This document shows, one piece after another, positions 30,085-46,437 of a stretch of DNA of 52,561 nucleotides. Position 1 is the stretch's first letter, and every line of letters starts with the position of its first letter. The translations under genes and the position numbers were made by a program. This stretch comes from an uncultured Dokdonia sp. GTDB lineage: Bacteria > Bacteroidota > Bacteroidia > Flavobacteriales > Flavobacteriaceae. The stretch is from positions 1 through 52,561 of the forward strand of contig NZ_CANLNH010000022.1 in NCBI RefSeq assembly GCF_947492535.1. Reading direction: 5' to 3'. The notes below the pieces were generated by a model. It saw only the letters and a list, made by a program, of their open reading frames with translations, was not told the DNA's origin and did no database searches.

Positions 30085-30303
30085 AAGTAATTAATTTAAG
30101 TTTTACACAAGAAATTTCTTGTATTTATACAGTAAAACTATCGTTACTTTTTAGCATACAGAATAGTAAATACAAACATGTAAAGAACGATTTCAAAAAC
30201 GTGAATATAGATTTCAAAAGCGCCACTTATTTATAATTCCATTATCTAGCTATAGTCTTTAATAAACTTTTTCATTTCATATTTAACCAGTAACTTCACA
30301 ACA

Positions 30304-30888
30304 ATGAATTTTTTAGCACATATTTACCTTTCTGGAGAGGATGATTTAGTTACTATTGGCAACTTTATGGCCGATGGTATTAAAGGGAAAAAATACTTAA
30401 AATATCCAGAAGGTATTCAGAAAGGAATTCTTATTCATAGATGGATAGATAGTTATACAGATAGCCATCATATCACAAAACAAAGTACAAAACGATTACA
30501 TGCTAAATATGGTCACTACAGTGGTGTGATTGTAGATATTTTATATGATCACTTTCTAGCAAAAAACTGGCATCAGTATCACAATCAACCGCTAGAGGAA
30601 TATGTAAATGACTTCTATACACTTCTCAAAGACAATCACGATCTCCTTACTACAAGGATTCAAAAAATGATGATTCCTATGATGGAGCAAAACTGGCTCC
30701 TAAGTTATGCTACATTAGAAGGAATTGAAACGGTACTCTACAATATGAATATTCGTATTAAAAAAAGAGTCCCTATGGATGAAGCTATTCAGGATTTAAA
30801 AGAACATTATGAAGCTTTTGAAAAAGAGTTCACTGCTTTCTTTGAAGAATTGCAAGCATTTATAGCTATCAAAATGAAAGAATTATAG
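30304..30888 (+). CDS. acpH: Acyl carrier protein phosphodiesterase-like (AcpH/DUF479)
   Basis: 194 residues. MNFLAHIYLSGEDDLVTIGNFMADGIKGK opens the family pattern (MNFLAHl-LS--d-----GN---D--KG), with IHRWIDSYTDSH and DILYDHFLAKNW. These His/Asp residues suit an HD-type metal phosphodiesterase. AcpH removes the phosphopantetheine group from acyl carrier protein. The next gene starts 1 bp after its stop; both lie rightward in a likely operon. Confidence 0.82.
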   Translation: MNFLAHIYLSGEDDLVTIGNFMADGIKGKKYLKYPEGIQKGILIHRWIDSYTDSHHITKQSTKRLHAKYGHYSGVIVDILYDHFLAKNWHQYHNQPLEEYVNDFYTLLKDNHDLLTTRIQKMMIPMMEQNWLLSYATLEGIETVLYNMNIRIKKRVPMDEAIQDLKEHYEAFEKEFTAFFEELQAFIAIKMKEL

Positions 30889-30889
30889 T

Positions 30890-31426
30890 ATGGCATCTGC
30901 ATTTGGTCACGCATTTGCTGCCATTGCATTAGGGACAAGTGTCCCTAAAACATACAGAAGTGTAAAATTCTGGATACTAGCAACAATATGTTCTATTCTT
31001 CCTGATGCAGATGTTATAGGATTTTCATTGGGAATTCCCTATGAATCTTTTTGGGGACATCGCGGTTTTAGTCATTCGCTACTTGCGGCACTTATTATTG
31101 GTGTACTAATCACACTCATTTTTTATAGCACTACCTTATTTTCTAGAAAAGGAATACTACTTATTCTCTTTTTCACACTCGCAACCGCCTCGCATGCAGT
31201 ATTAGATGCCATGACTACAGGAGGTTTAGGAGTCGCCTTCTTCTCTCCTTGGGAAGATACTCGTCATTTTTTCGATTGGAGACCTATCCAAGTTTCGCCT
31301 ATCGGTATTGAAAACTTTTTTAGTGCTTGGGGTTTACGAGTCATTCTCAGCGAACTCATCTACATTTTCATTCCTGGGACGATATATATACTTATATTAT
31401 ATATCATTCGTAGGCAAAAGAAATAG
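30890..31426 (+). CDS. Membrane metal-dependent hydrolase (YdjM/DUF457-like)
   Basis: 178 residues with about four membrane helices. HAFAAIALG, ILPDADVIGF (PDxD), WGHRGFSHSLLAAL (HRGxxHS) and SHAVLDAMT (SHxxxD) form the conserved His/Asp set of the YdjM/DUF457 membrane-bound hydrolases. In E. coli YdjM is LexA-regulated; no LexA box was seen here. Substrate unknown. It follows acpH by 1 bp. Confidence 0.8.
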   Translation: MASAFGHAFAAIALGTSVPKTYRSVKFWILATICSILPDADVIGFSLGIPYESFWGHRGFSHSLLAALIIGVLITLIFYSTTLFSRKGILLILFFTLATASHAVLDAMTTGGLGVAFFSPWEDTRHFFDWRPIQVSPIGIENFFSAWGLRVILSELIYIFIPGTIYILILYIIRRQKK

Positions 31427-31430
31427 CTTT

Positions 31431-31454
31431 TATACGCTTTCGCGAAAGCGTATA
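31431..31454. repeat. Dispersed palindrome, longest perfect copy
   Basis: The core dyad extends to 24 bp here, with TATA added on both sides and CAG following. It lies 4 bases after the 30890 gene and could serve as a stem downstream of it. The rest of the gene-free stretch 31427-31863 is AT-rich. I see no convincing gene there; a short TTG-started open frame at 31516-31800 is not credible. Confidence 0.9.
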
Positions 31455-31863
31455 CAGATTTTATAAAATTTACAACAATAAATTAACATATTAAGACACA
31501 ACCATTTTATAACTTTTGAGTCTTATTAATATAGCTACTTATATTATTGAAAGCAGTCTGAATAGTGTGGTGCTTATACAGACTGCTTTTATAATTATAC
31601 TTCCATTATATTCCTTCCATTTATTTTTTTGTCAGCTACATTACATTTCTGAACGAATGCCGTTTACAAAAGCGCATTCACAACACATTTATAAAATATT
31701 AACAATCAATACCTTAAACTCTCATTTTGAAAAAATTGTAAGTAACTCATTTACGCATCGACCATTTTTACAATTAAAATTGCTATTGATTATTTATTGA
31801 TTTTAGATAAAGATAACTTCCAAAAAAAGTTTTCCTTTTAACCCTCGAAAGACACCCCAAGTC

Positions 31864-32721
31864 ATGAGAAAAGTAAAGACATTGTTCGTAGGAGTATATA
31901 TACTTCTAACCTATACAATACAAGCCCAAGTTGGTATAAATACAACAACACCTGATCCAAGTTCTATTTTAGACATCGTTGATGATCATAAAGGAATTTT
32001 AATTCCTAGAGTCTCTTTACAAGGAAAAAATGATGTCACTACCATACGTTTACAACCCGATGAAACAAGACCTGCTACAGGATTATTAGTATACAATCTG
32101 TCGGACGCAGGAACAGGAGATGATAGAATTGCTACTGGGTTTTATTATTACAATAACGATACATGGGTACGACTTCATGATGAAGGTTTTAGTTTACAGT
32201 ATGATCAAACTGAAGAAATTCAAGCTTCTAGTAATGCAACTACATACATAGCCATTCCTGGCCTAGACACAGGCGTACTAAGACTACCCTATGCTGGTAT
32301 TTATAAAGTTTCGGGAACAGGTTTTTATTCTCCAGGTGCACATACAGCAGATAATAATGGTAATGGAAATGGAAACGGAAATAGTAATGGAGATGGTGTA
32401 GGTATTGCCTCATTAGCCTTAGAAATGGAAGTAAACGGTTCTTCTTCTATTGTAAAAGAACGTTTTGTATCTGCCCTATCATTGGACCTAGGAAATAATA
32501 ATCGATTTGATAGTGTGGGTCAACAAGTATCATATTCATTTTCATTTGAAGCTAGCCCCGATGAAGAGTATCGATTTATTGTAAAAGGCCGTGAGTGGAA
32601 TGCAGTCAATACCGAAGAAGAAGGCATCTTTGGTAAAGACACCGACGGATTCACCCGCTCAAATGGACAAAATGATGCCTATAGAGGTTCTCTAATCATC
32701 TCATTAACAAGACAATTTTAA
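31864..32721 (+). CDS. Secreted surface protein, VGINTT family, copy 1
   Basis: 285 residues. Signal peptide (1-21, ending QAQ). The mature N-terminus VGINTTTPDPSSILDIVDDHKGILIPRVSLQG is the common Bacteroidota opening VGI(G/N)TTxPdpSailDv---KGiLiPrvsL, followed by GLLVYN and YYNNDTWVRLH. The C-terminal beta domain is shared with the next two genes: IPGLDTGVLRLPYAGIYKV, FGKDTDGFT and a closing SLTRQF. An Asn-Gly repeat (GNGNGNGNSNGDG) splits the C-terminal domain. It may be a cell-surface adhesin or pilus-tip-like protein; function unknown. The three copies are in one array. Confidence 0.7.
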   Translation: MRKVKTLFVGVYILLTYTIQAQVGINTTTPDPSSILDIVDDHKGILIPRVSLQGKNDVTTIRLQPDETRPATGLLVYNLSDAGTGDDRIATGFYYYNNDTWVRLHDEGFSLQYDQTEEIQASSNATTYIAIPGLDTGVLRLPYAGIYKVSGTGFYSPGAHTADNNGNGNGNGNSNGDGVGIASLALEMEVNGSSSIVKERFVSALSLDLGNNNRFDSVGQQVSYSFSFEASPDEEYRFIVKGREWNAVNTEEEGIFGKDTDGFTRSNGQNDAYRGSLIISLTRQF

Positions 32722-32799
32722 ATCAAGCATAACATCCCTATTAATATATTATAATACAACATCTTATTTTTTAACAAGATCATTCTAAATCCCCAAATC

Positions 32800-33612
32800 A
32801 TGAATAAATTGTTACTATCCGTACTACTCCTATGCTCTTTTTTTCAAATAACATATAGCCAAGTAGGAATTAATACAGACCAAGTTGACCCAAGTGCTAT
32901 TTTTGAAGTAAAAGCAACAGACAAAGGAATTCTCACCCCTAGAGTAGCCCTAGAAGCTATAGACAATATAGACAGCCCTATTACAAATCCAGCACCAGGC
33001 TTATTTATTTTTAACACCGCAACTTCTGTGCCTGAAGCTGCGATTGCAACAGCTGTATCACCAGGTTTTTACTACTTTGACGGAACCATATGGCAACGTA
33101 TTTTTAATAACGGATTTGCATTAGAATTTAAGCAAACTGCAGAATTGATGGGTGTAGTTACCTCTGAAGGACTTCCTATACCAGGACTAGATACCGGTGA
33201 CTTTAGTGTCCCTTTTAAAGGTACCTATCAAATAAAAGTAACAAGTTATTATACAGCCGGTGATCCCATTAATGAAACAGATGCAGCATGTCAAGGAGAC
33301 TTTAGACTCTACCGTGTGGAAAATGATAACACAAACACCTTTTTAGAAATGGCATATGTCACCTCAGAGTCAAAATACCTGGAAAATGCTGTAGGAGAAT
33401 TTAATAATCTAGGAAATCAATACACACTAATTCACAATATAGATTTAGACGCAAATACAAATTATAGATTTTTGGTAGCAGGAAGTCAGTGGATTTGTCA
33501 TAATACCAACATAAGTTATTTTGGTAAAGAAACCGATGAATTTACGGGATCAAATGGTATCATAGAAGGACAATATGGCGAAATGACAATCACTTTAGTA
33601 GAACAAAAATAA
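32800..33612 (+). CDS. Secreted surface protein, VGINTT family, copy 2
   Basis: 270 residues. Signal peptide to about residue 20. VGINTDQVDPSAIFEVKATDKGILTPRVAL, then GFYYFDGTIWQRIF. The C-terminal domain parallels copy 1 (IPGLDTGDFSVPFKGTYQIKVTSYY ... FGKETDEFTGSNG) but has two cysteines (DAACQGD, SQWICHN) that the other copies lack, perhaps a disulfide. It follows copy 1 by 78 bp and precedes copy 3 by 21 bp. Confidence 0.7.
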   Translation: MNKLLLSVLLLCSFFQITYSQVGINTDQVDPSAIFEVKATDKGILTPRVALEAIDNIDSPITNPAPGLFIFNTATSVPEAAIATAVSPGFYYFDGTIWQRIFNNGFALEFKQTAELMGVVTSEGLPIPGLDTGDFSVPFKGTYQIKVTSYYTAGDPINETDAACQGDFRLYRVENDNTNTFLEMAYVTSESKYLENAVGEFNNLGNQYTLIHNIDLDANTNYRFLVAGSQWICHNTNISYFGKETDEFTGSNGIIEGQYGEMTITLVEQK

Positions 33613-33633
33613 GCATCCTAAACCCCATATAAG

Positions 33634-34473
33634 ATGACATACTTACAACAATCAATACTCTATATTTTACTATCCTTTTTAGCATTCCAGACTGCAACCA
33701 TACAAGCACAAGTAGCTATCGGAACAACACAACTAGACGCAGGAGCTATATTTCAAGTAGACAGCAATGATAAAGGTGTTTTAATCCCTAGAATTAGTTT
33801 GACCTCTAATACAGATGTTACTACTATTGAAAACCCAGCCGAAGGCCTCACCATATATAATATAGCGACAGTAAATAATTCGACAAATTCTATAACACCC
33901 GGACTCTATTATTGGAATGGTGTACAATGGAGTCGTTTATTATCAAGAGGATATAGTCGACAATTTATTCAAGAGTCGCAAAATTTAATCAACACTACAA
34001 GTGATGTACCTATCAACGGATTAAACCAAACGATAGAAGTTCCATTTTCGGGTATTTACAGAGTGATTGTTACTTCTTATTTTGGTCTAGCTCCAGTAGC
34101 AAATCCAAATATCTCTGATGACAATGTTGCATTAGCGTCTGTACGTCTTGAGGTAGATGGAGGTACGATAGACGAAAAATTAATCCCTGCATTTTCAAAA
34201 TTTGTAGATGATACTGCTACCGGTGGTGATGGCTCTATTAATTTCTTTGCCTTATCTAGACAAGTAGTTATCACAAAAGATATCGAATTAATCGCTGGTC
34301 AAAGTTATAATTTCAATGTCATTAGTCGTTTATGGGATTGGACAAATGTAACTCCTGCTATAGGCGCTTTTGCCTATTTTGGGTTAGATACCTCATTATA
34401 TGAAAGAAATCCTGGACTTACAGACGAAGCTTCTAGAACAAAAATGACAATTAATTTAGTGAGACAATATTAA
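33634..34473 (+). CDS. Secreted surface protein, VGINTT family, copy 3
   Basis: 279 residues. Signal peptide ends near residue 25 (ending QAQ). VAIGTTQLDAGAIFQVDSNDKGVLIPRISL, GLYYWNGVQWSRLL, then VPFSGIYRVIVTSYF and a final MTINLVRQY, parallel to copy 1. It is the most diverged of the three in the middle. A strong terminator follows at 34568, so the three genes share a transcript unit. Confidence 0.7.
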   Translation: MTYLQQSILYILLSFLAFQTATIQAQVAIGTTQLDAGAIFQVDSNDKGVLIPRISLTSNTDVTTIENPAEGLTIYNIATVNNSTNSITPGLYYWNGVQWSRLLSRGYSRQFIQESQNLINTTSDVPINGLNQTIEVPFSGIYRVIVTSYFGLAPVANPNISDDNVALASVRLEVDGGTIDEKLIPAFSKFVDDTATGGDGSINFFALSRQVVITKDIELIAGQSYNFNVISRLWDWTNVTPAIGAFAYFGLDTSLYERNPGLTDEASRTKMTINLVRQY

Positions 34474-34567
34474 GAGAAACTATTGTCATAGAAGATTTTA
34501 TTAATGGTGCTTAATAATTTTTAAAACATTCTTTATATACATTAATTGTTTATGAATGAAATAGTAT

Positions 34568-34603
34568 ACCCTCTAAAAACCATTTTTAGAGGGTTCTTTT
34601 TTT
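34568..34603 (+). terminator. Terminator of the VGINTT array
   Basis: Arms accctctaaaaa (34568-34579) and tttttagagggt (34583-34594) plus a T tract. Confidence 0.85.
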
Positions 34604-34674
34604 AATCCTCTTTTCTATCTTGGTAAGAATCCCTATTTTTAAAAAGTGAAGAAACTAAATCGCTCACTTTAATT

Positions 34675-36381
34675 ATGAAATACACCATCGCATCCCTTTA
34701 CACCCTTCTATTCCTTATTACAAGCTGTAAAACAGAAACCTCTCAAGAAAAAAGAGAGATCAAACGCGGACTCATTACTCAAAAAGCCATGGTGGTTTCG
34801 GCTCGTGAAGAAGCGTCTAAGATTGGATCTATGATTATGGAACAAGGCGGTAACGCTTTTGATGCTATGGTTGCTACCGAAATGGCACTTGCGGTTACGT
34901 ATCCATATGCTGGAAATCTTGGTGGAGGTGGTTTTATGGTATATCGCACCCATGATGGTACCGTAGGAGCCCTCGACTATCGTGAAAAAGCACCTGGTGC
35001 AGCCGATAAGGATATGTATCTGGATGAAGAAGGAAATGTCATACCAAACCTTAGCACTGAAGGTGCTATGGCTGTAGGCGTACCAGGAACTATTTCAGGC
35101 ATTTTTGCAGCCCATGAAAAGTTTGGTACCATGCCTATCTCAACACTACTACAACCTGTCGTAGATCTTGCAAGAAACGGATATGTTGTTACAGAAAAAC
35201 AAGCAGGACGTTTTGAAAAATATAGCGAAGTATTTAACCGTGTGAATGAAGATAGTACGATGCTGTATAGCACCGCTTTCGCGAAAGCGGAAACAGTAAA
35301 AAACCCTGCATTAGCAGCAACTTTAGAACGCATTATCGCCAACGGTAAAGCTGAGTTTTATGGCGGTGAAACGGGACAGAAAATGGTCGAATACCTACAA
35401 AGCAAAGGAGGTATTATGACCGTAGATGACCTAAAAGCATACGAAGCACAATGGCGTACACCCGTCACCTTTGCATATGACAACCTTAAGATTATTTCTA
35501 TGAGTCCGCCGTCTAGTGGAGGCGTTTGTCTTGCACAAATTATGGAAATGATAGAACCCTATGATGTATCCCAATACGGACATAATTCAGAAAAAGCCAT
35601 CCAAGTGATTACTGAAGCAGAACGTCGTGCCTATGCCGATCGAAGTTTTTATTTAGGTGATCCTGATTTTGTAGATATTCCCATTGAAACCTTAATTTCT
35701 GATGCATACAGTAAAAACAGAATGGATACCTTCTCTTGGGATAAAGCTACGCCTTCAAGTGAAGTAAATCATAGTGAATTACCTGGTTATGAAAGTATGG
35801 AAACCACCCACTACTCTATCGTAGATCAATTTGGGAATGCAATTGCAGTCACTACAACACTTAATGGCGCATTTGGCTCTAAATTATATGTAGATGAACT
35901 CGGTTTCTTTTTAAATAATGAAATGGATGACTTCTCTTCAAAACCTGGTGTACCCAATATGTTTGGCCTTTTGGGAGCCAAAGCCAATGAGATTGCCCCT
36001 GGAAAACGGATGTTGTCTAGTATGACACCAACGCTCGTAGAAAAAGATGGTGAGTTCTGGATGACTGTAGGGACTCCTGGAGGATCTACCATCATCACAT
36101 CGGTATTACAAACCATTTTAAACGTTCACGAATTTGAAATGGGAATGCAAGAAGCGGTAAATGCTCCACGCTTTCACCACCAATGGTTACCAGATGTGAT
36201 CATGTTTGAACCTAATAGCTTTGATAAAACACTTCTGGAGAATCTAAAAACCAAAGGGTATTTCCCAAATGAAGAAGTTTCTCCAGTAATTGGAAAGGTA
36301 GATGGTATTCTTGTCCTACCCGACGGCACATTAGAAGGAGGCGCCGATCGCCGAGGGGATGATACTGCTGTTGGGTTTTAA
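34675..36381 (+). CDS. ggt: Gamma-glutamyltransferase, lipoprotein type
   Basis: 568 residues. The N-terminus is a lipoprotein signal (YTLLFLITSCKTE, Cys near 18), so the enzyme is probably tethered at the envelope. GGT landmarks: AREEASKIGSMIMEQGGNAFDAMVA, NLGGGGFMVYR, DYREKAP, the autocleavage/catalytic Thr in TTHYSIVDQFGNAIAVTTTLN (near 378), NNEMDDFS and GTPGGSTI. It moves gamma-glutamyl from glutathione and its conjugates to water or amino acids. A full palindrome copy is built into the gene at 35273 (STAFAKAE) in the large subunit. Confidence 0.88.
   Translation: MKYTIASLYTLLFLITSCKTETSQEKREIKRGLITQKAMVVSAREEASKIGSMIMEQGGNAFDAMVATEMALAVTYPYAGNLGGGGFMVYRTHDGTVGALDYREKAPGAADKDMYLDEEGNVIPNLSTEGAMAVGVPGTISGIFAAHEKFGTMPISTLLQPVVDLARNGYVVTEKQAGRFEKYSEVFNRVNEDSTMLYSTAFAKAETVKNPALAATLERIIANGKAEFYGGETGQKMVEYLQSKGGIMTVDDLKAYEAQWRTPVTFAYDNLKIISMSPPSSGGVCLAQIMEMIEPYDVSQYGHNSEKAIQVITEAERRAYADRSFYLGDPDFVDIPIETLISDAYSKNRMDTFSWDKATPSSEVNHSELPGYESMETTHYSIVDQFGNAIAVTTTLNGAFGSKLYVDELGFFLNNEMDDFSSKPGVPNMFGLLGAKANEIAPGKRMLSSMTPTLVEKDGEFWMTVGTPGGSTIITSVLQTILNVHEFEMGMQEAVNAPRFHHQWLPDVIMFEPNSFDKTLLENLKTKGYFPNEEVSPVIGKVDGILVLPDGTLEGGADRRGDDTAVGF
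35273..35290. repeat. Dispersed palindrome inside ggt
   Basis: ccgctttcgcgaaagcgg, 18-bp perfect dyad kept in frame and read as TAFAKAE. Confidence 0.9.
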
Positions 36382-36383
36382 GT

Positions 36384-36800
36384 TTAGACCTCGGTTAGTA
36401 AACGTATATTTTCTACATATATATCAATGGTAGGTTTTACTTCAAAAACCTCTCCATCTTCCCATACGATATAATAAAGATTATATGTTTTTTTTAGTTT
36501 AGAAGAACGATATTCATAGGTATAAGTAACGTTATATTTTTGTCCTTTACGTTTTATTTTTTTGTGATTAGAAAGTTCTTTTTTCCCTTTTATGTTTTTT
36601 GACTTTACAGTTACATAAAATAAATAGTCATCAGTAGATGTAAGCATGGTAACACCATCTTTCAACAAAAATTCTGAAGTGTCTATTGGAACAGAGCATT
36701 TAGTAATTTTTACAGTCTGAGACTTATCCTTATCAGGTAGGCCAAACGACACAAATATAATTGCTAAAATTGGTACTAATATTTTAATTTTTATAAACAT
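36384..36800 (-). CDS. Hypothetical exported protein
   Basis: 138 residues with an N-terminal signal or anchor helix (4-20). The rest is a small, Lys-rich, beta-rich domain. No family recognised. It converges with ggt, 2 bp apart, and starts 50 bp before the repair gene on the other strand. Confidence 0.55.
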   Translation of the reverse strand: MFIKIKILVPILAIIFVSFGLPDKDKSQTVKITKCSVPIDTSEFLLKDGVTMLTSTDDYLFYVTVKSKNIKGKKELSNHKKIKRKGQKYNVTYTYEYRSSKLKKTYNLYYIVWEDGEVFEVKPTIDIYVENIRLLTEV

Positions 36801-36850
36801 TATTTTCTTTTATATATTTTTAATAAATATACATCTTAATTAAATACAGT

Positions 36851-37522
36851 ATGAATTTCGTTCCTGATCTCATAGGACAACTCAAAGTAATAGCAAATGC
36901 AACAGGTGCTCTAGAGATGAAGATTTATATGAGAAATCGGTATTCTTTTTTTGGTGTCAAAGCTCCTGAACGTAAAGCTATTCTAAAAGAAATCATTAAC
37001 ACGTACAAACCTCAATTAGATCGACTAATAGTTATTCAAATTGTAAAAGAATTATATAAGCAACCAGAGCGCGAACTCCATTACTGTGCTGTCGAACTCA
37101 CGACTCGATTTCTCAAAAAGAAATTCTACAAAGAAGACATCGCTTTTATCAAACACCTTATCATCACACATTCTTGGTGGGATACTGTAGACATGATTTC
37201 CAAACATCACTTAGGAAGTTATTTAAAATTATATCCAGAAGAAACGACAAACATTATTCAAAACTTTAGTAATGCTGATCACCTATGGTTAAATAGAAGT
37301 GCTATTCTCTTTCAATTAGAGTATAAAGAAGAAACAAACGCTAAACTCCTCTTTCAATTATGTATTAAGCATAAAGATACTGGTGAATTTTTCATCAATA
37401 AAGCCATTGGTTGGGCATTACGAGAATACGGAAAGACAAACCCTCAAGCAGTGATTGCATTTGTCTCTAAAAACTGTCTTGCACCTTTAAGTGAACAAGA
37501 GGCTATTAGAAAGCTTCAGTAA
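36851..37522 (+). CDS. DNA alkylation repair protein (AlkD-like)
   Basis: 223 residues, all-helical HEAT-like repeats. RYSFFGVKAPERKAILKEI, WWDTVDMISKHHLG, LWLNRSAILFQLEYK and FFINKAIGWALREYGKTNPQAV match the AlkC/AlkD fold, with the Trp and Asp of WWDTVD that help in base release. It probably excises 3- or 7-alkylpurines from DNA. Isolated gene; the following 219 bp are AT-rich with no gene seen. Confidence 0.8.
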   Translation: MNFVPDLIGQLKVIANATGALEMKIYMRNRYSFFGVKAPERKAILKEIINTYKPQLDRLIVIQIVKELYKQPERELHYCAVELTTRFLKKKFYKEDIAFIKHLIITHSWWDTVDMISKHHLGSYLKLYPEETTNIIQNFSNADHLWLNRSAILFQLEYKEETNAKLLFQLCIKHKDTGEFFINKAIGWALREYGKTNPQAVIAFVSKNCLAPLSEQEAIRKLQ

Positions 37523-37741
37523 AACATATAACATTATACAATTCAGCTTATTACAACAATTTACCTTACGAGGTATAAGTTTTTCTTGTCATTTCGCAAA
37601 TAAACCATAAGCAATTAACAATCAAAACGTTATATTAACATCAAATCATTTTATTTATAATTCAATCTTAGTATCTTAATTGGGTAATTAACTACATGTC
37701 AATTATTTAAAATTAAATTATTAATCATTAAATTTTATATT

Positions 37742-37921
37742 ATGCTAAAAAAAATTGGAAACCTCGGAAAATCATTATCTAAAGATCTACAAAGAGAAGT
37801 AAATGGAGGTATGTTAAGAGAAGCTACTTGCAATAATCCATATATTAATGAGGGTGGACCTTGTGATCAAGGATACTATCCACATCCTGTATATGGACAT
37901 TGTGTTTGCTGTGCTTACTAA
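37742..37921 (+). CDS. GG-leader Cys-rich secreted peptide 1
   Basis: 59 residues, starting MLKKIGNLGKSLSKDLQREVNGG. The leader ends in a GG cleavage site, as in bacteriocin-type and ComC-like precursors exported by ABC transporter-peptidases. The core of about 36 residues has five cysteines (AT-C, GP-C, GH-C-V-CC) and many Gly/Pro/Tyr. No modification enzyme or transporter is in the window. Role unknown; antimicrobial or signalling peptide is inference. An inverted-repeat terminator starts 10 bases after the stop. Confidence 0.7.
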   Translation: MLKKIGNLGKSLSKDLQREVNGGMLREATCNNPYINEGGPCDQGYYPHPVYGHCVCCAY

Positions 37922-37930
37922 TTTATAATA

Positions 37931-37974
37931 TAGTATCAAAGATGATTATTCATAATTATCTTTGATACTATTTA
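37931..37974 (+). terminator. Terminator after GG-leader peptide 1
   Basis: Long arms tagtatcaaagatgattat (37931-37949) and its near-exact complement at 37952-37970, one G-U, then an AT-rich tail. Confidence 0.75.
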
Positions 37975-38186
37975 TTTTAAAACTCCTCATTATCAAACTC
38001 AAAATCAGCACCTCTAGCTGTTTACTACGATTAAAACACAAACAATATCAAATTTGAAATATATAATTACACATTTACAATACCTATTGTAATTATGAAT
38101 ATATGTATGCATTTTTAGCATATCAGATACAAATTATAAACGTCTGATATCAATATAATAATTGTATAATATTAAATTTTTCAAGT

Positions 38187-38369
38187 ATGTTAAAAAACAT
38201 TTCAAATTTAGGGGTTACATTAAAGACTAGTGAGCAAAAATTAATTAGTGGAGGGTTAGCTAAAAGACCTCCTTTATGTCAAAATCAAAACTGTCCTCCT
38301 GGGTACTGTTGTGGTTCAAATCCATATTTTTGTGTATTAGCAGGTCCTGGAGGTCGCAATTGCAGATAA
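38187..38369 (+). CDS. GG-leader Cys-rich secreted peptide 2, knottin-like
   Basis: 60 residues, MLKNISNLGVTLKTSEQKLISGG leader like peptide 1 (same MLK-I-NLG start, SGG end). The core of 37 residues has six cysteines spaced C-X4-C-X4-CC-X6-C-X9-C with the PPGYCC run. This is the arrangement of cystine-knot and hevein-like small proteins of eukaryotes; the X6 gap is slightly long for a strict knottin. It would fold only after export to an oxidising place. Its own terminator follows at 38451. Function unknown. Confidence 0.7.
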   Translation: MLKNISNLGVTLKTSEQKLISGGLAKRPPLCQNQNCPPGYCCGSNPYFCVLAGPGGRNCR

Positions 38370-38450
38370 CTAATTAAACTATCAAGTCAACTACCTCGGG
38401 ACAAGTCTCGGAGTATTTAATCTTTTGGTTACACCAATAAGTAGATTAAT

Positions 38451-38482
38451 AGGTACACGTTTAAAAATGTGTGCCTTTTTTG
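38451..38482 (+). terminator. Terminator after GG-leader peptide 2
   Basis: Arms aggtacacgttt (from 38451) and aaatgtgtgcct (to 38476), paired with two G-U pairs, and a T run. The remaining gene-free stretch 38370-38985 also holds the composite repeat at 38545. A GC-rich cctcgggacaagtctcggag is at 38393-38412. Otherwise nothing is seen, and open frames there are not credible. Confidence 0.7.
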
Positions 38483-38544
38483 TCATCAAACAGTATCACT
38501 ACCAAACGAAACAATGTTATTTCTTAACATCTAAAATATGTTGT

Positions 38545-38606
38545 ATACGCTTTCGCATCTGTCTGTTTGTAGGCAGGTTCACGACCATCGAAAGAGTAAA
38601 GCGTTA
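38545..38606. repeat. Composite repeat, second copy, splitting a palindrome arm pair
   Basis: acgcttt (38547-38553) and aaagcgt (38598-38604) are inverted arms. Between them lies ctgtctgtttgtaggcagg and ttcacgaccatcgaaagagt, parallel to the 83-140 region. It looks like an element inserted in, or fused with, a CGCTTTCGC palindrome. Confidence 0.65.
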
Positions 38607-38985
38607 AGGACTATACGATGAAACATCCTCATATATATAACATACGTTTCATATCCATTCCACACTAAATGTATAATCTGCCATAAAACAATAATTAGGA
38701 TAAAAACAGGTCCATACATATTGATTATATAGATAACTACTGTTCTTATAATCTTATACAATTATCTCTAAACATATACCCCCTTTTTATACACATACTC
38801 CTTCCCTCATAAATAAATATCATTAACCATAGAAATTCTTCCATTCACTCATTTCTTTTTCTTTCAAAGTAGTTATCCATCATATTTGAATTGATTATCA
38901 CAAGTATACTATATAATCATAATGATGGCGGTATCTGAAAAGCCTTAAATAGAGTAAGATAAATTTTAATCTAAAACTAAAAGTC

Positions 38986-39975
38986 ATGAAAAAAGTATTC
39001 TTTTTTTTAACCATCATGGTTATTCAAAGTCCACTATTTGCTCAATTGAATAATAATGATATCATTTCATTACGTGCTGATACAGGAAAATGGATGGCTC
39101 GTTGTTATAATTGTCAAAAAGCAACAACATCAAATACAATTACAGCTCATATTTCTAATGATGCCAAAACACTTCCAACGTATGCTAAGTTTACCGTAAA
39201 GAAAATGCCAAATGGAAAAATCGCATTAAAAACTGACAATGGGAAGTACCTTGGTCGTTGTCGCAATTGTGTTACAGGTGCACCTTCAGATATTTTAACG
39301 GCACATGTAGGTAGTCCAAATCCTAGCTATGCACAATTTGAACCTATCCTTTTAGCCAACGGAAAATATGTTTTCAAATCTGATAATGGAAAATACCTTG
39401 CACGTTGTCGTAATTGTTCTCCAGGGTCATCTGTCCCAGACATTGTTGCTATACATGAAAACAATCCAAATGCAGCCTATGCACAATGGACAGTAACTAT
39501 AAAAAGAACACCTCAGTTCAGTTCAATAATCAACAATGTTCAAAGTAATATCCAAATTAAAAACCTGTGGAAAAAAGATGGAAAAACTGATTATAAAATC
39601 CATATTGAAAATAGCAAGGTAGATGCAGGAGGCGTACAACCTAACTGGTTATCGTCTAGATGGCATATTGAGGAAGTTCCAGGAACAAAATATATACGAA
39701 TTAGAAACCACTGGAAAAAAGATGGAAGAAATAATTTTTATCTTCAAACAGCTAATGGAATTCTAAAAGCGGGTCCTTTAAAATCAAGACAGCATTCTTC
39801 ATCTTCACAATGGTTACTTGAAAAAGTTTCTGGTACTACATATAGAATAAAAAATCGTGCTACATCAAATCAGTATTTACATATTGAAAATGCTACCTTA
39901 GAATTAGGCCCTATTCAACCTAATTGGAGATCTGCTTTATGGGAATTACAAGGATATAAATCAAGTTCTCGATAA
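38986..39975 (+). CDS. Secreted protein with two beta-trefoil-like domains
   Basis: 329 residues. Signal peptide (1-19, ending LFAQ). The first domain (about 22-175) has three repeats, each with an xDxGKxxxRCxNC motif (KWMARCYNC, KYLGRCRNC, KYLARCRNC) and TAHxSN/N-YAQ/K-F; it resembles a fascin-like trefoil. The second (about 180-325) has repeats of IQIKNLWKKDG-YKIHIENxxVDAGxxQPNWxSxxWHIEE, resembling ricin-type trefoils. Sugar binding is likely from the fold. The CxxC pairs in each first-domain repeat may form disulfides. The gene is alone. Function unknown. Confidence 0.6.
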   Translation: MKKVFFFLTIMVIQSPLFAQLNNNDIISLRADTGKWMARCYNCQKATTSNTITAHISNDAKTLPTYAKFTVKKMPNGKIALKTDNGKYLGRCRNCVTGAPSDILTAHVGSPNPSYAQFEPILLANGKYVFKSDNGKYLARCRNCSPGSSVPDIVAIHENNPNAAYAQWTVTIKRTPQFSSIINNVQSNIQIKNLWKKDGKTDYKIHIENSKVDAGGVQPNWLSSRWHIEEVPGTKYIRIRNHWKKDGRNNFYLQTANGILKAGPLKSRQHSSSSQWLLEKVSGTTYRIKNRATSNQYLHIENATLELGPIQPNWRSALWELQGYKSSSR

Positions 39976-40121
39976 CATAATTTTATACACAGAACTTACA
40001 CAACAGACGTTCTTATACACTCATAATTATTCTATCCCTCAATTTTTCAGTAATTTAACACATCTAATACTCGTATAGTACTATTCAACTAACAACCAAC
40101 TCTCACTAAAAATCAATTAAA

Positions 40122-40676
40122 ATGCAAATTATAACATCCAATAAAAATAATATTTCATTTAACGTGCAAGTTGCACGATTACATGAAGCTATTACAAAAG
40201 CAGATATTGGCTTAGGAACATCTTCCTATCCAATTGTCATAAATAATTTTGTAACCATAAACGATCCTGACTTATATAATTTTTGTCCAGGCGAAACCAT
40301 TTCCATAACACTCATCGATACTATTATAAATCCAGAAGCACCAAGATTAGACTTAGAAGTAGTCTCATGTAGACTCTTGAATATAGGTCAAGAATTTAAT
40401 AATTCGGAAAATACATTGGCAAATCCTTGGAGTGGCGTTTTTAATTTAAATACGAACAATATAGTCATAGCCTCAGATGGATCATTGAGCATTACCCCAG
40501 AAAATAATGCTTGTTCGATTACCGTCTCTGAAGATCCAAATGAATCTTCAAAAACAACATTTGTATCCTACAGTATTTTATTAAAATCGAAGGTATTGCT
40601 CTCTACAGATACTGTAAAAGTATTTTACTTTCTCATCGATCCTTTAATTAAAGTTACTTCTGGTGGTAGAGGATAA
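40122..40676 (+). CDS. Hypothetical protein
   Basis: 184 residues with no signal peptide, beta-rich by pattern. It starts MQIITSNKNNISFNVQVARLHEAI and ends KVFYFLIDPLIKVTSGGRG. The last strand recalls the end of small AidA/PixA-like inclusion-body proteins but the match is too weak to assign. It lies 42 bp ahead of the TPR histidine kinase gene on the same strand. Confidence 0.55.
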   Translation: MQIITSNKNNISFNVQVARLHEAITKADIGLGTSSYPIVINNFVTINDPDLYNFCPGETISITLIDTIINPEAPRLDLEVVSCRLLNIGQEFNNSENTLANPWSGVFNLNTNNIVIASDGSLSITPENNACSITVSEDPNESSKTTFVSYSILLKSKVLLSTDTVKVFYFLIDPLIKVTSGGRG

Positions 40677-40718
40677 ATACAGCTATTTCATAACAATACA
40701 ATTTTAAAATTAACGACT

Positions 40719-42503
40719 ATGCAAATACTTAAAATTGTATTGTTATTCTTTTTTCTTCAGTTCTTTGATGTAACTGGATATGCTCAAAATATTCAAAAGA
40801 CAGACAGTCTTCTTCATGTTCTAGAAAACAGTGATCTATCAGAAAAAGAGCATGTTCGTTTATTAATAAAAATTGCTTCTAATCATCCCCAACCATCTAA
40901 AGCCTCCTATTACGCTAAGTTATCATTACAGATGGCTGCGAGAATCAATGCAGCCATATTGCAAGCACAAGCTTGGGAAGAAATAGGGGCCATTGAGCAA
41001 CGATTAGGAAATAAAGGCACTGCGCTTAAAGCTATATTTAATGCATTACAACTATATGATTCGCTAGACTTAAAAGAAAACCAAGCGGCATCTTATATGC
41101 AAATTGCAGATCATTACATTACAGAAGGTGAGTATCCAACGGGGATTACCTATTTAAAAAAAGCACAGGATATTTATGATGAGGTAAACAATGAACTCTA
41201 TATCACCTTTACACATGTTAACTTAGGAGAAACTTATCGACTTTCTGGTAATTTTGAAGAATCAGAAAAATCGTTACACAAGGCATTAGAACTAAATAAG
41301 CATCTCAAAGATGAATCTATAGAAGGGTATTCGTTAGGAAATCTAGGAATGTTATATGCTAGACAAAATAAACCTGAAATAGCAAAAGAATATTTATACA
41401 ATGCAATTACAATGTTAACTGTATTAGGAGACCCTTATTCTTTGTCTGTATATACAGAAGCCTTAGGAAAAATATACATAAAAGAAGGACAATTCGTAAA
41501 TGCAGAAGCGTTGTTACTTAAAGCGATTTCAATCGCAAAAGAAGCCGGATTGAAAGAACAAGTCAGAGATTTTAGCGCTTCTATTACAGATCTATACCAA
41601 ACACAAAAACGCTTTGAAAAAGCGCTCGAATTTCAAAAATTATATCAACACTACCAAGATAGCCTAGTAAATAAGGCAAATATTCAAAAAGTAGAACAAA
41701 TTAAAGCTGGCTATGAAATAGAAAAACGAGAATCTGAAATAACGCTTCTAAATACGGTTAATACCAATCAGAAATATTGGGTGATTTTTCTAATCATTGG
41801 TGTTTTACTACTTCTTTTATTTTCCTACCTATTATATAAAGGAAATAAGAAAATAAAAAATACAAACCAAATACTACGCACTCAAAAAGAGCTTATCAGT
41901 AAAAGAGAAAAAGAAAAAGTATTACTACTACAAGAGCTAAATCATCGAGTAAAAAATAACCTACAAATGATCGCCAGTCTACTTAATCTACAAAGTAGAG
42001 AACTTACAGGACATCCTGCAAAAGAAGCTATACTTTCTGGCAAGCACAGAGTAGAAGCCCTATCACTAGTACATAGAAAATTATACCAAGAAGGAGTTGA
42101 TACAAAGATTGTATTAAAAGACTACATTGAAGAATTAGTATTAGGTCTATTCCAAGGCTATAATGCTACCTTTAAACCTACTTTTTCAATAACAGATATC
42201 AGTATCAGTATAGACATTGCTATACCACTGGCTTTGATTATCAACGAGCTTGTGATTAATGCTTTAAAATACGCATATGAAGGCATAGAAAACCCATTAC
42301 TCAATATTATTATGCTACAAGAAGATAAAGAGAGTATGCATCTACAAATTATCGATAATGGGGTAGGTTTTAAAACAGATAAAAACACAAAAGACAATTC
42401 TTTTGGAATCAAATTAATAACCTCTCTCATTGAACAATTAGAAGGTACTATCAAAAAACTAGACACCACTGGCACACACTGGGAAATGAATATAAAATTA
42501 TAA
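40719..42503 (+). CDS. TPR sensor histidine kinase (HisKA_2 type)
   Basis: 594 residues. Signal peptide or first anchor (1-22), about six TPR units outside the membrane (40-310), a coiled-coil linker, one membrane helix (about 353-373), a second coiled coil, then the kinase. The H-box LLQELNHRVKNNLQMIASLLNLQSREL (His near 410) is HisKA_2/HWE type. The ATPase domain has the N-box NELVINALKYAYEG and DNGVGFKT. It probably senses a periplasmic protein or peptide through the TPRs and signals to the LytTR regulator encoded 31 bp downstream. Confidence 0.82.
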   Translation: MQILKIVLLFFFLQFFDVTGYAQNIQKTDSLLHVLENSDLSEKEHVRLLIKIASNHPQPSKASYYAKLSLQMAARINAAILQAQAWEEIGAIEQRLGNKGTALKAIFNALQLYDSLDLKENQAASYMQIADHYITEGEYPTGITYLKKAQDIYDEVNNELYITFTHVNLGETYRLSGNFEESEKSLHKALELNKHLKDESIEGYSLGNLGMLYARQNKPEIAKEYLYNAITMLTVLGDPYSLSVYTEALGKIYIKEGQFVNAEALLLKAISIAKEAGLKEQVRDFSASITDLYQTQKRFEKALEFQKLYQHYQDSLVNKANIQKVEQIKAGYEIEKRESEITLLNTVNTNQKYWVIFLIIGVLLLLLFSYLLYKGNKKIKNTNQILRTQKELISKREKEKVLLLQELNHRVKNNLQMIASLLNLQSRELTGHPAKEAILSGKHRVEALSLVHRKLYQEGVDTKIVLKDYIEELVLGLFQGYNATFKPTFSITDISISIDIAIPLALIINELVINALKYAYEGIENPLLNIIMLQEDKESMHLQIIDNGVGFKTDKNTKDNSFGIKLITSLIEQLEGTIKKLDTTGTHWEMNIKL

Positions 42504-42534
42504 TACCCATTTCCTTTCAATAACAGAATGACCT

Positions 42535-43305
42535 ATGCATACTAACAATAACAAAGTACAAGTACTTATCGTAGAAGACGAAATTATAGTAGCACAAGAT
42601 ATAAGAGATCGACTTACTGATATGAATTATGAAGTAATCGCAACGGCTCCCTCTGTAGATAAAGCAGTGGCGGTTATAGAGACTCATCCTACTATAGATA
42701 TAATTATGATCGATATCATTTTAAAAGGAGACAGAGACGGGATTGCACTCGCCCGAATTATCAATGAGCGTTTTCAAATTCCATTTATATTTCTCACATC
42801 ACATGCAGACAGTTCACTTGTAGAACGAGCCAAAGAAGTAAATCCATATGCATACATATTGAAACCATTCAATGATAGGCAGGTAAATATAGCCATTGAG
42901 TTAGCATTGATGAATTTTTCAAATAAAACACCAGGAAAAGATGTATTTACCTCTGAAAAAGAATCTCAAAAAAAAGCAGAAGTCCTTCAAATCAAAGACA
43001 GTCTCTTCTTAAAAAAGAATCATCATTTTGAACGTGTTCCTTTAAAAGAAATTTTATTTATACAAGCAGATAACAACTACTGTACGATCTATACAAAATC
43101 AAAAAAGTTTTTATATGCAGTCGTTCTAAAAAAAATCGAATCCCAACTACCACCCGCTAATTTTATCCGGACACATAGAAGCTATGTGGTAAATATTAAT
43201 TTAGTAACAGGCTTTGAAGGAAACCTTCTGTTTATGGATGAACATAAAATCCCTGTAAGTAAATCCCAAAAAGAGCTCGTTTTCAAACTTTTTAAAACCA
43301 TATAA
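42535..43305 (+). CDS. LytTR-family response regulator
   Basis: 256 residues. An N-terminal receiver (8-125): VEDEIIVAQDIRDRL, phospho-acceptor Asp near 58 in IMIDIIL, LTSHAD, and LKPF. A LytTR DNA-binding domain (about 155-256) ends FIRTHRSYVVNINLVTGF ... VPVSKSQKELVFKLF. It is the partner of the preceding kinase and would bind promoter repeats as a dimer. Target genes are not visible in the sequence. Confidence 0.85.
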   Translation: MHTNNNKVQVLIVEDEIIVAQDIRDRLTDMNYEVIATAPSVDKAVAVIETHPTIDIIMIDIILKGDRDGIALARIINERFQIPFIFLTSHADSSLVERAKEVNPYAYILKPFNDRQVNIAIELALMNFSNKTPGKDVFTSEKESQKKAEVLQIKDSLFLKKNHHFERVPLKEILFIQADNNYCTIYTKSKKFLYAVVLKKIESQLPPANFIRTHRSYVVNINLVTGFEGNLLFMDEHKIPVSKSQKELVFKLFKTI

Positions 43306-43339
43306 ACCGTATATGGTACAATTTCTTTCTTTCTAAGTC

Positions 43340-43359
43340 CGCTTTCGCGAAAGCGTATA
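43340..43359. repeat. Dispersed palindrome, intergenic copy
   Basis: cgctttcgcgaaagcg (43340-43355) with the tata right flank, between the response regulator and marR. The upstream region 43306-43573 also has the palindrome at 43513 and no gene. Confidence 0.9.
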
Positions 43360-43512
43360 AAACAACACCTCTATTCTATATATTTTGTACTACCCTTACC
43401 TATTTCTTATCTTTAGAAAACTTTCTATACAAGAAATATAACGATTCTATCTTCAAAACTGCAACTTTACACTCCACTCAAAGTGAGCTTTTTATAAAAT
43501 TTATATCATTTT

Positions 43513-43530
43513 TACTATGCATGCATAGTA
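43513..43530. promoter_or_regulatory. 18-bp perfect palindrome upstream of marR (candidate operator)
   Basis: TACTATGCATGCATAGTA, exact dyad, 44 bases before the marR ATG and overlapping or near the likely promoter (tatttttatgtatatttac follows). Its size and AT-rich arms suit a MarR dimer, so autoregulation of the fad cluster is likely. It is an inference from position and symmetry. Confidence 0.6.
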
Positions 43531-43573
43531 TTTTTATGTATATTTACAACGATTTCGAACCTAATCATCCCTA

Positions 43574-44029
43574 ATGAGAGATAAAACTATAGATTTTTGT
43601 TTGCGATATACTTGGCAAGCCGTTATTAAAATGTATAATGAGCAGGCATCAAAATACGATGCTACCATGGCGCATGCATTTGCTTTATTAAGTATAGACC
43701 CTGAAGAAGGAACTCCTTCTACAGCCTTAGGTCCTCGTATGGGTATGGAAGCCACTTCCTTATCGCGTACACTTAAAACCATGGAAGACAAGAACCTTAT
43801 TGTACGTAAACCAAATCCTGCCGATGGTAGAAGTGTTTTAATACATCTTACAGACGATGGTAAACGCAAACGTCAATACTCTAAAGACCACGTACTTCAA
43901 TTTAATGATACGATACGTGAAAATGTTTCAGAAGAAGAAATCCTTGGTTTTTATAAAGTAATAGAAACCATAAATGACTTAGTACAGAATAAGAAAATAT
44001 TTAATCAAGAAGAAACGATTCATAAATAA
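43574..44029 (+). CDS. MarR-family transcriptional regulator
   Basis: 151 residues. Winged helix: LGPRMGMEATSLSRTLKTMEDKNLIVRKPNPADGRSVLIHLTDDG (recognition helix and wing with the DGRSV/L turn). The first helices (KMYNEQASKYDATMAHAFALL) make the dimer. It heads the beta-oxidation genes with a 1-base overlap with the HCDH-ECH gene. The ligand may be an acyl-CoA; the likely operator is the palindrome at 43513. Confidence 0.85.
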   Translation: MRDKTIDFCLRYTWQAVIKMYNEQASKYDATMAHAFALLSIDPEEGTPSTALGPRMGMEATSLSRTLKTMEDKNLIVRKPNPADGRSVLIHLTDDGKRKRQYSKDHVLQFNDTIRENVSEEEILGFYKVIETINDLVQNKKIFNQEETIHK

Positions 44030-46437
44030 TGGCAAAACGTATAATAAGAAAAGTCGCTGTGATTGGTAGTGGTATTATGGGAAGCGGGATCGCTTGTCAT
44101 TTTGCTAATATCGGTGTAGATGTACTCCTACTAGACATCGTACCACGCGAATTAAACGACAAAGAAAAAGCAAAAGGCCTTACATTAGAGCATAAAGTGG
44201 TGCGTAACCGTATGGTAAACGATGCCCTTAAAGCTGCGCTAAAAAGTAAGCCCTCTCCTATTTATAGTCAAGCCTTTGCTAGCCGTATCACTACTGGAAA
44301 CCTAGAAGATGATATTGCAAAAGTAAAAGATGTAGATTGGATTATTGAGGTTGTTGTAGAACGTCTAGATATCAAACAACAAGTATTTGAAAACCTAGAA
44401 AAACATAGAACTCCAGGAACCCTTATTACATCAAATACGTCAGGTATTCCTATTCAGTTTATGAGTGAAGGGCGTAGTGAAGATTTCCAAAAGCACTTCT
44501 GCGGAACACATTTCTTTAATCCTGCACGGTACTTAAAGTTATTTGAAATTATTCCAGGTCCCAAGACCGATCAGAACGTATTAGATTTCTTAAATAATTA
44601 CGGAGAGCAATACTTAGGAAAAACTTCTGTGATTGCTAAAGATACACCCGCCTTTATCGGAAACCGTATCGGGATTTTCTCTATCATGAGTCTATTCCAT
44701 ACTGTAAAAGAAATGGGACTCACCATAGAAGAAGTAGATAAACTCACAGGGCCTGTCATTGGACGCCCGAAGTCGGCTACTTTCCGTACCGTAGATGTGG
44801 TAGGTTTAGATACTTTAGTTCATGTAGCCAACGGAATCGCTCAAAACTGTAAAGACGATGAGCGTAAAGAGCTTTTTGCCTTACCAGATTTCATCAATAC
44901 CATGATGGAAAACAAATGGCTAGGATCAAAAACAGGACAAGGCTTCTATAAAAAGACAAAAAATGCCGAAGGGAAAACAGAAATCCTTTCGTTAGATTTA
45001 GATACATTAGAATATCGCGAGAAAAAACGTGCAAAATTTGCAACGCTGGAACTCACAAAAACCATCGATAATGTTGTTGATCGTTTTAAAGTATTGGCTG
45101 GTGGAAAAGACAAAGCGGGTGAATTTTACCGCAAGTCGTTTGCACACCTATTTGCATACGTACAAAACCGTATCCCAGAAATTACTGACGAGCTTTATAA
45201 GATAGATGATGCCATGAAAGCTGGTTTTGGATGGGAACACGGACCTTTCCAAATTTGGGATGCTATTGGTGTAGAAAAAGGAATCGAGCTCATGAAAGCA
45301 GAAGGTCTTGACGTTGCCGCTTGGGTAACCGATATGATCGCTTCTGGAAGCACCTCTTTCTATACAGTAGACAATGGAGCGACTCATTTTTATGACATTC
45401 CATCTAAAAAGCAAACAAAAATACCGGGACAAGATGCCTTTATTATCCTAGATAATATCAGAAAACAAACCGAGGTTTATAAAAACTCAGGTGTTTCTGT
45501 ACAAGATCTAGGCGATGGGATCTTAAATGTAGAATTCCGTAGTAAGATGAACACCATTGGTGGCGATGTACTTGCTGGATTAAATAAAGCCATTGATATT
45601 GCCGAGAAAGACTTCGCAGGACTCGTTGTCGGAAACCAAGGCGCTAATTTCTCTGTAGGAGCAAACATCGGTATGATCTTTATGATGGCCGTAGAGCAAG
45701 AGTATGATGAGTTGAATATGGCAATCAAGTATTTCCAAGATACCATGATGCGTATGCGTTACTCAGGCATTCCTACTATTGCTGCCCCACACGGTATGAC
45801 CTTGGGAGGTGGATGTGAATTATCACTTCACGCAGATAAAGTAGTTGCTGCTGCCGAATCCTATATCGGACTCGTAGAGTTTGGTGTCGGTGTGATTCCA
45901 GGCGGTGGAGGTTCTAAAGAGATGGCATTACGTGCATCAGACACCTTCAAAAAAGGAGATGTAGAGCTCAATGTATTACAAGAATACTTCCTGACTATTG
46001 GTATGGCAAAAGTATCAACGTCTGCCTATGAAGCCTTTGATACAGGTATCCTTCAAAAAGGAAAAGATATTGTTGTTGTTAATAAAGACCGTCAGATTGC
46101 AACCGCAAAAGCACATGCAAAATTAATGGCAGATGCAGGATACACACAACCTGTAAAACGTAACGACGTCTTAGTATTAGGAAAGCAAGCCTTAGGAATG
46201 TTCTTAGTAGGAACAGACAGTATGGAAGCAAGTCACTATATCTCAGAACACGATAAGAAAATAGCAAACAAACTAGCCTATGTCATGGCTGGAGGAGACC
46301 TTTCAGAACCTACCAAAGTATCAGAACAATACTTATTAGATCTGGAACGTGAAGCTTTCTTATCACTCACAACAGAGCGCAAAACGTTAGAACGTATTGA
46401 GCATATGTTGAAGAGAGGGAAACCGCTTCGTAATTAA
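44029..46437 (+). CDS. 3-hydroxyacyl-CoA dehydrogenase / enoyl-CoA hydratase fusion
   Basis: 802 residues. The N-terminal domain is an NAD-binding HCDH (VAVIGSGIMGSGIACHFANIGVDV, EVVVERLDIK, HFFNPARYLKLFEII). The C-terminal part is an enoyl-CoA hydratase (LVVGNQGANFSVGANIGM, GMTLGGGCELSLHADKV, GVIPGGGGSKEM). This order, HCDH first, is the reverse of E. coli FadB, where the hydratase is N-terminal. Steps two and three of fatty-acid beta-oxidation. Expected to work with the thiolase and dehydrogenase downstream. Confidence 0.88.
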   Translation: MAKRIIRKVAVIGSGIMGSGIACHFANIGVDVLLLDIVPRELNDKEKAKGLTLEHKVVRNRMVNDALKAALKSKPSPIYSQAFASRITTGNLEDDIAKVKDVDWIIEVVVERLDIKQQVFENLEKHRTPGTLITSNTSGIPIQFMSEGRSEDFQKHFCGTHFFNPARYLKLFEIIPGPKTDQNVLDFLNNYGEQYLGKTSVIAKDTPAFIGNRIGIFSIMSLFHTVKEMGLTIEEVDKLTGPVIGRPKSATFRTVDVVGLDTLVHVANGIAQNCKDDERKELFALPDFINTMMENKWLGSKTGQGFYKKTKNAEGKTEILSLDLDTLEYREKKRAKFATLELTKTIDNVVDRFKVLAGGKDKAGEFYRKSFAHLFAYVQNRIPEITDELYKIDDAMKAGFGWEHGPFQIWDAIGVEKGIELMKAEGLDVAAWVTDMIASGSTSFYTVDNGATHFYDIPSKKQTKIPGQDAFIILDNIRKQTEVYKNSGVSVQDLGDGILNVEFRSKMNTIGGDVLAGLNKAIDIAEKDFAGLVVGNQGANFSVGANIGMIFMMAVEQEYDELNMAIKYFQDTMMRMRYSGIPTIAAPHGMTLGGGCELSLHADKVVAAAESYIGLVEFGVGVIPGGGGSKEMALRASDTFKKGDVELNVLQEYFLTIGMAKVSTSAYEAFDTGILQKGKDIVVVNKDRQIATAKAHAKLMADAGYTQPVKRNDVLVLGKQALGMFLVGTDSMEASHYISEHDKKIANKLAYVMAGGDLSEPTKVSEQYLLDLEREAFLSLTTERKTLERIEHMLKRGKPLRN

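Follow-up and report, generated by a model that had tools for sequence, protein, structure and literature searches.

Bacteroidetocins are peptides of Bacteroidota with a double-glycine (GG) leader of 15-16 amino acids (aa) and a cysteine-rich core of ~40 residues, and their migration is altered on reduction. A locus is described as one peptide in a four-gene region with a C39-type ABC exporter, a thiol oxidoreductase and a transmembrane (TM) protein, and the first two bacteroidetocins have four cysteines each (PMC6671954). Here we analysed two neighbouring genes, P1 and P2, for small cysteine-rich precursors in a 52,561-nucleotide contig of an uncultured Dokdonia sp. (NZ_CANLNH010000022.1; C22 in our numbering, hereafter the window). 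We found that P1 and P2 are two members of a large dispersed repertoire in which one double-glycine leader precedes varying cores.

P1 (37742..37921, plus strand) encodes a precursor of 59 aa, read from the window as MLKKIGNLGKSLSKDLQREVNGG, and P2 (38187..38369, plus strand) one of 60 aa, MLKNISNLGVTLKTSEQKLISGG. Both matched the leader model described below (40.5 bits, E 2.5e-9 for P1; 42.3 bits, E 6.8e-10 for P2). Each opens with a 23-aa leader ending in GG, placed at 37742..37810 in P1 by leader alignment A1 and genome searches and at 38187..38255 in P2 by the leader model. The predicted core of P1 (37811..37918) has 36 aa with five cysteines and that of P2 (38256..38366) 37 aa with six, arranged as C-x4-C-x4-CC-x6-C-x9-C, a knottin-type spacing. 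A terminator-like hairpin on the plus strand follows P1 (37930..37971; 19 pairs, three of them GC, then TTATTTT), and the hairpin scan placed another 3' of P2 (38451..38476) together with a weaker third (38396..38411), both also on the plus strand. Three such hairpins in 37500-38600 compare with a shuffle mean of 0.4. These results bear out a preliminary description of the DNA, which had reported two adjacent cysteine-rich open reading frames (ORFs) with GG leaders, a terminator for each and the cysteine number of the first and cysteine spacing of the second peptide, both of which were exact. Its two-peptide view needs a correction of scale: the genome contains 42 or more ORFs of this kind, P1 and P2 among them. 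Neither peptide had a match in Pfam (E≤1), NCBIfam (E≤10) or PHROGs (E≤1). A phage origin was considered and rejected after a megablast of positions 30000-45000 against a phage collection gave no match.

Orthologues of P1 were found in synteny in two other Dokdonia genomes, D. pacifica DSM 25597 (L064:5124-5303) and G015 (L060:5425-5604). The D. pacifica gene differs by 15 synonymous and five non-synonymous changes, a ratio of non-synonymous to synonymous rates (dN/dS) of 0.06, and the core by 11 and two (dN/dS 0.026); against G015, the dN/dS was 0.225. P1 is thus under purifying selection. In both genomes a gamma-glutamyltransferase-like gene (assigned by eye) lies 5' of the site and MarR and fatty-acid genes lie 3' of it, and D. 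pacifica shares with the window a DNA-alkylation gene 5' of P1. A paralogue of the P1 core lies on contig C9 of the same genome as the window (L044:5315-5500). Relatives of P2 occur in a Dokdonia metagenome-assembled genome (MAG; L093:1848-2033, identical to L047), in Aquimarina megaterium (L087:11965-12150) and in a further genome of the family (L218:1501-1713). The six cysteines are kept in all three; the MAG copy has two extra ones, the L218 copy has longer loops, and the A. megaterium core is 70% identical to that of P2 with equal cysteine spacing. Homologues with conserved cysteines, whose absence was to count against the peptides, are therefore present for both, and we conclude that P1 and P2 are real genes. 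At the P1 site of G015 the neighbouring peptide is a different one (L060:5148-5339), with a core like that of a peptide on contig C14 of the window's genome (L036:5282-5470). Because of this resemblance, the peptide genes appear to come and go between sites.

Two other genes of the window deserve mention. Beside P2, positions 38986-39975 encode a protein with a signal-like start, repeated RCxNC motifs and weak, sub-cut-off Pfam matches to beta-trefoil domains; in D. pacifica and G015 the interval from P1 to the MarR gene contains nothing of comparable size. A 23S rRNA-intervening-sequence type protein (PF05635) is encoded at 46529-46885, between a 3HCDH/enoyl-CoA hydratase gene and the gene that follows it. 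Its counterparts at this position in two further Dokdonia genomes are 55-58% identical, against 94-99% for the flanking genes.

The leader model A1 was built from the leader residues alone of 49 of 66 leaders; the 66 had been collected by a pattern search limited to ORFs containing two or more cysteines. Seven leaders of a lanthipeptide-like LNK type and ten others, mostly near-copies, were excluded. In the genome of the window the model matched 46 places on 17 contigs (E≤0.5). By our rules for ORFs starting with ATG, 45 of these places (all except C2:416467) yielded 42 ORFs with the leader, each with at least two cysteines in the core (two in one core, three in one, four in three, five in ten, six in 19 and seven in eight). 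In the reversed DNA of 80 loci (L081-L160), no match reached 15 bits.

The leader itself partly resembles those read by C39 peptidases. C39 domains recognize Leu at -12, a hydrophobic residue at -4 and a GG, GA or GS end, and ComA reads Leu -12, Glu -8 and Leu -7 (PMC6363468). In our family K3, L12 and G22 are each present in at least 90% of the 49 leaders; counted from the end, this includes Leu -12, and the majority residues are Glu -8, Gln -7 and Ile -4. P1 has L12, V20 and GG, and P2 has L12, I20 and GG. The positions read by C39 domains are partly kept in this leader family.

The preliminary description had proposed to look for a C39-type exporter, and a C39 profile search located two C39 ABC exporters with intact catalytic Cys and His motifs (KDCGPTCL and NHYVVLY) in the genome. 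One lies in a class I lanthipeptide-type locus on contig C9 (L043, G000:C9:138000-156000) with Lant_dehydr_N and Lant_dehydr_C domains, HlyD and several LNK-leader peptides nearby. The other (L042, G000:C1:395000-411000) stands beside two proteins without Pfam match, which we take to resemble a grasp-with-SPASM pair, so that this locus is presumably of the type producing ribosomally synthesized and post-translationally modified peptides (RiPPs). The presence of the first locus, with one peptide of the P1/P2 leader family in its region (L043:14806-15012), raises the question whether P1 and P2 are lanthipeptide-like thioether RiPPs, whose cysteines the LanB-type enzymes of contig C9 would join into rings. 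We consider this very unlikely, as peptides with the other, LNK-type leader lie in the LanB region, the P1/P2-type leader travels with the fusion protein described next, and the even cysteine counts outside Dokdonia (see below) point to disulfides.

Three more matches of the C39 profile were not exporters but fusions of ~540 aa, in which a C39-like domain is joined to VKOR and a DsbA-like thioredoxin. In L005, the third of them, the open frame extends 5' of its first ATG, and this extension encodes the C39-like part. All three fusion genes are directly adjoined by sister peptides with the same leader. In the Dokdonia MAG (L047/L093) the fusion (140-1765) comes first, followed by the P2 relative (1848-2033), an ABC exporter (2186-4315), a leader peptide, an HlyD-like gene (assigned by similarity to the HlyD of L043) and another leader peptide. 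The fusion has six conserved redox cysteines. Its C39-like domain is catalytically dead, without the catalytic Cys, and in none of 79 fusions do the first 60 residues contain a CGxxC or a DCG motif. As an observation on the side, L076, L077 and L078 form a divergent fusion subgroup (28-29% identical to the query), and in L077 and L078 a similar 444-aa protein adjoins.

We compared the occurrence of leader and fusion among genomes. Seven of 18 Dokdonia genomes have the fusion, each with at least two leader matches (E≤0.5); of the 11 lacking it, G010 has four matches, G008 one weak match and nine none. Of 299 genomes of the family, 40 have the fusion, 37 the leader (E≤0.01) and 30 both (p 4e-26). 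In 395 genomes of the phylum, the numbers were 41, 21 and 21 (p 7e-24), with no leader in the 354 fusion-less genomes, and at genus level the coupling was 6/13 versus 0/158. The two samples partly overlap and the genomes are related, so these p-values are only indicative; in some genomes the leader counts are lower bounds. Seven fusion-less genomes of the family sample and G010 carry the leader without any VKOR (E≤0.001), which rules out a strict dependence of the leader on the fusion. The cores in these genomes have 0-1 cysteines in G020 and G179, four and four in G125, four in G055, five in G045, and four and five in G010; in G149 and G318 no ORF passed the ORF rules in the searched stretches. 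We conclude that the leader mostly implies the fusion and that the fusion does not imply this leader.

We collected the best 80 of 277 fusion relatives as fusion loci (from Flavobacteriaceae, Saprospiraceae, Bacteroidales and others), using a floor of 12 bits for locus counts and of 18 bits for core cysteine parity and gene position. At least one leader ORF was present in 75 of the 80 loci, 408 in all. In the 77 eligible loci 387 of 394 leader ORFs lie downstream of the fusion, and in 64 of these loci a leader ORF starts within 600 nt of it on the same strand. An ABC exporter match of more than 300 aa occurred in 47 of the 80 loci, with the N-terminal peptidase part present in 46. The cores in these loci fall into 179 clusters, of which 121 are singletons.

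The model of the D. pacifica fusion strongly supports a PCAT peptidase-like domain joined to VKOR and DsbA, and its VKOR part aligns to SynVKOR (3kp9, 4nv2 and 4nv6). Six TM segments are predicted in the averaged profile over the 79 fusions and six in the structure model, although single sequences gave six in 12 of 18 cases and a stricter script exactly six in 20 of 80. On average the 79 fusions carry 2.44, 5.80, 2.03 and 7.15 Lys plus Arg in the flanking and loop segments of the redox side, compared with 0.37, 0.14 and 0.48 in those of the other side. From this charge pattern we infer that the redox parts of the fusion would lie in the cytoplasm. The same leader and export could also be combined with periplasmic oxidation, if VKOR and DsbA have the conventional orientation; the C39-like domain would then do something else, for example dock to the exporter. 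SynVKOR, the aligned VKOR of known structure, acts extracytoplasmically. An even number of TM helices puts the C39-like and thioredoxin domains on the same side, and the thioredoxin domains of such fusions are usually extracytoplasmic. The charge distribution argues against this orientation, and if cleavage of the leader takes place at the cytoplasmic face, a fold that binds it would serve little purpose on the outside; we regard periplasmic oxidation as the less likely course, though the foremost of the alternatives.

We next consider the cysteines, which make up 13.1% of the cores compared with 0.64% of ORFs of at least 250 aa from the same loci. Because A1 holds leader residues only, the core cysteine counts in the 76 non-Dokdonia loci are an independent test, and those in the genome of the window partly so. 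Outside Dokdonia the count was even in 341 of 365 non-redundant cores, which points to disulfides; over all cores, it was even in 167 of 179 cluster representatives. As a general rule even counts had to be rejected for Dokdonia, where odd counts are common (50 of 107 cores): the four Dokdonia loci within the fusion-locus set gave three even and 15 odd cores. With its five cysteines P1 alone cannot be a three-disulfide knot; it may dimerise, retain a thiol or bear another modification. Small cysteine-rich proteins often bind zinc, and together with the odd counts in Dokdonia this could suggest that P1 and P2 are small intracellular zinc-binding proteins that merely resemble leader peptides. Conservation of the GG leader while the cores vary, and the gene order with oxidase and exporter, make this highly improbable.

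P2 has the six cysteines of a knottin, in the order C-C-CC-C-C with spacing in the knottin range, and P1 does not. Among 72 six-cysteine cluster representatives, CC falls in the middle gap in 26, where shuffling predicts 11.2, and in the other gaps in 5-7. A model of P2 aligned with SHL-I (1qk7) and VSTx1 (2n1n), which are knottins, over 28 residues at root-mean-square deviations of 1.9 and 1.7 (VIA-align), a weak match from a model whose input of 17 of 29 cores, hand-picked and cysteine-matched, can favour a knot. By sequence, P2 matched only SHL-I among solved structures (E 0.24, not significant), and a six-cysteine profile gave four matches there (best E 0.26, not significant). For a hevein or chitin-binding domain, P2 had no Pfam match (E≤1) and the profile found only the plant peptide Ac-AMP2 at E 5.9. 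Of the cystine-knot and hevein framework ascribed to the second peptide in the preliminary description, the knottin part comes down to a compatible spacing and the weak match of the model to tarantula knottins, and the hevein part found no support. P2 may be weakly termed knottin-like.

Taken together, these findings make it probable that P1 and P2 are precursors of secreted, disulfide-stabilized mini-peptides, which undergo leader-guided oxidation by the fusion and then C39 export, and have a bacteriocin-like use. Through its leader the precursor would dock on the membrane oxidase fusion encoded elsewhere in the genome, the docking site being the dead C39-like domain. VKOR and the DsbA-like thioredoxin would form the disulfides of the core, probably while the precursor is still cytoplasmic. 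Cleavage after GG and export of the core would follow, both carried out by a C39 ABC exporter together with HlyD. The product would most likely be used against neighbouring cells, as bacteroidetocins are; antagonism is put first because these are the closest characterized system. Signalling is the next option. In it the peptides would be exported and sensed like ComC-type pheromones instead of serving as weapons. Quorum-signalling peptides are likewise exported by C39 exporters (PMC6363468), and 2-5 kb downstream the window encodes a histidine kinase-like protein (40719-42503, assigned by eye) and a LytTR response regulator (42535-43305). In D. pacifica and G015, however, P1 and the MarR gene are separated by no gene of that size, and a genome with dozens of cores that are for the most part unrelated (42 in this one; the 179 clusters with 121 singletons) fits a library of weapons better than a code. 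We regard signals as unlikely.

Several observations weigh against oxidation by the fusion followed by C39 export. The contig of the window has neither a C39-profile match nor a fusion, so that fusion and exporter must act on P1 and P2 in trans. Both exporters of the genome sit in other RiPP-type loci, and either might serve P1 and P2. In the fusion loci the exporter match is limited to the 47 of 80 given above and to 38 of 58 near-full-length ones. At -7 most leaders carry Gln where ComA substrates carry Leu, and in P1 a Leu stands at -8. The fusion occurs without a leader match in 10 of 40 family and 20 of 41 phylum genomes, and the leader without fusion or VKOR in the eight genomes named above, four of which (G125, G055, G045 and G010) have cores with four or five cysteines. 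Finally, 23 cores in the genome of the window have even and 19 odd cysteine numbers, P1 with its five among the latter, and the Dokdonia loci L036-L080, L161-L203, L081, L082, L084 and L093 together with the window gave 56 even and 50 odd.

With more reserve, we suggest that this system is a Bacteroidota counterpart of venom-peptide diversification, in which one leader carries hypervariable knottin-like or otherwise disulfide-rich cores, a leader-reading oxidase has its VKOR and DsbA parts facing the cytoplasm and disulfides form before C39 export; this wider proposal is possible, yet somewhat more doubtful than not. If so, marine Bacteroidota would gain a large class of disulfide-rich peptides that is barely annotated so far, with the leader and the fusion as a handle for finding more. 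A leader-guided disulfide oxidase, if true, would mean that disulfide formation can be specified in a new way; were it to act in the cytoplasm, it would also challenge the rule that these bonds are made outside. A bacterial knottin, if true, would be of use in engineering and would help to explain how the fold arose more than once.

How do these peptides compare with known families? P2 shares with animal and plant knottins the six cysteines ordered as C-C-CC-C-C. Of seven sister peptides scanned, four touched at least one of NF047798 (leader_Chryseo), NF047792 (CCPGW putative bacteriocin) and TIGR01847 (bacteriocin_sig), all with scores below the cut-off (15.2-16.1 of 23.5 for NF047798, in three of the seven; 19.8 of 80 and 14.5 of 15.7 for the others). 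P1 and P2 had no match to NF047798 at E≤10 and did not reach its cut-off of 23.5 bits. A C39-like/VKOR/DsbA fusion or a Bacteroidota knottin was the subject of none of the literature titles listed, from a collection lacking most subscription journals, and VKOR is not mentioned in the accessible part of PMC10352776.

Unlike SynVKOR, a VKOR-thioredoxin fusion, the protein described here has an additional N-terminal C39-like domain and one more TM helix (135-155), and the charge pattern of the aligned loop is opposite. It differs from the C39 domains of PCAT exporters (PCAT1 and LahT) and from the N-terminal domain of HlyB in that its first 60 residues lack CGxxC and DCG and that VKOR-DsbA takes the place of an ABC transporter as fusion partner. 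TmcD of the staphylococcal TMcin clusters is similar in being a dedicated DsbA-family enzyme for a bacteriocin disulfide; it is a stand-alone protein for one disulfide, and VKOR and C39 do not occur in the accessible part of that text (PMC13252029).

With the bacteroidetocins, compared by their description, P1 and P2 share the phylum, the GG leader, a cysteine-rich core of ~40 residues, a C39 exporter and a thiol oxidoreductase. They differ in the leader (23 aa against 15-16) and in having dozens of dispersed variable cores, some with knottin-type spacing, and one fusion with a C39-like domain. The linkage to an exporter seen in bacteroidetocin loci is absent from the window's contig, where other thiol oxidoreductases were not sought, and present beside the P2 relative in the Dokdonia MAG.
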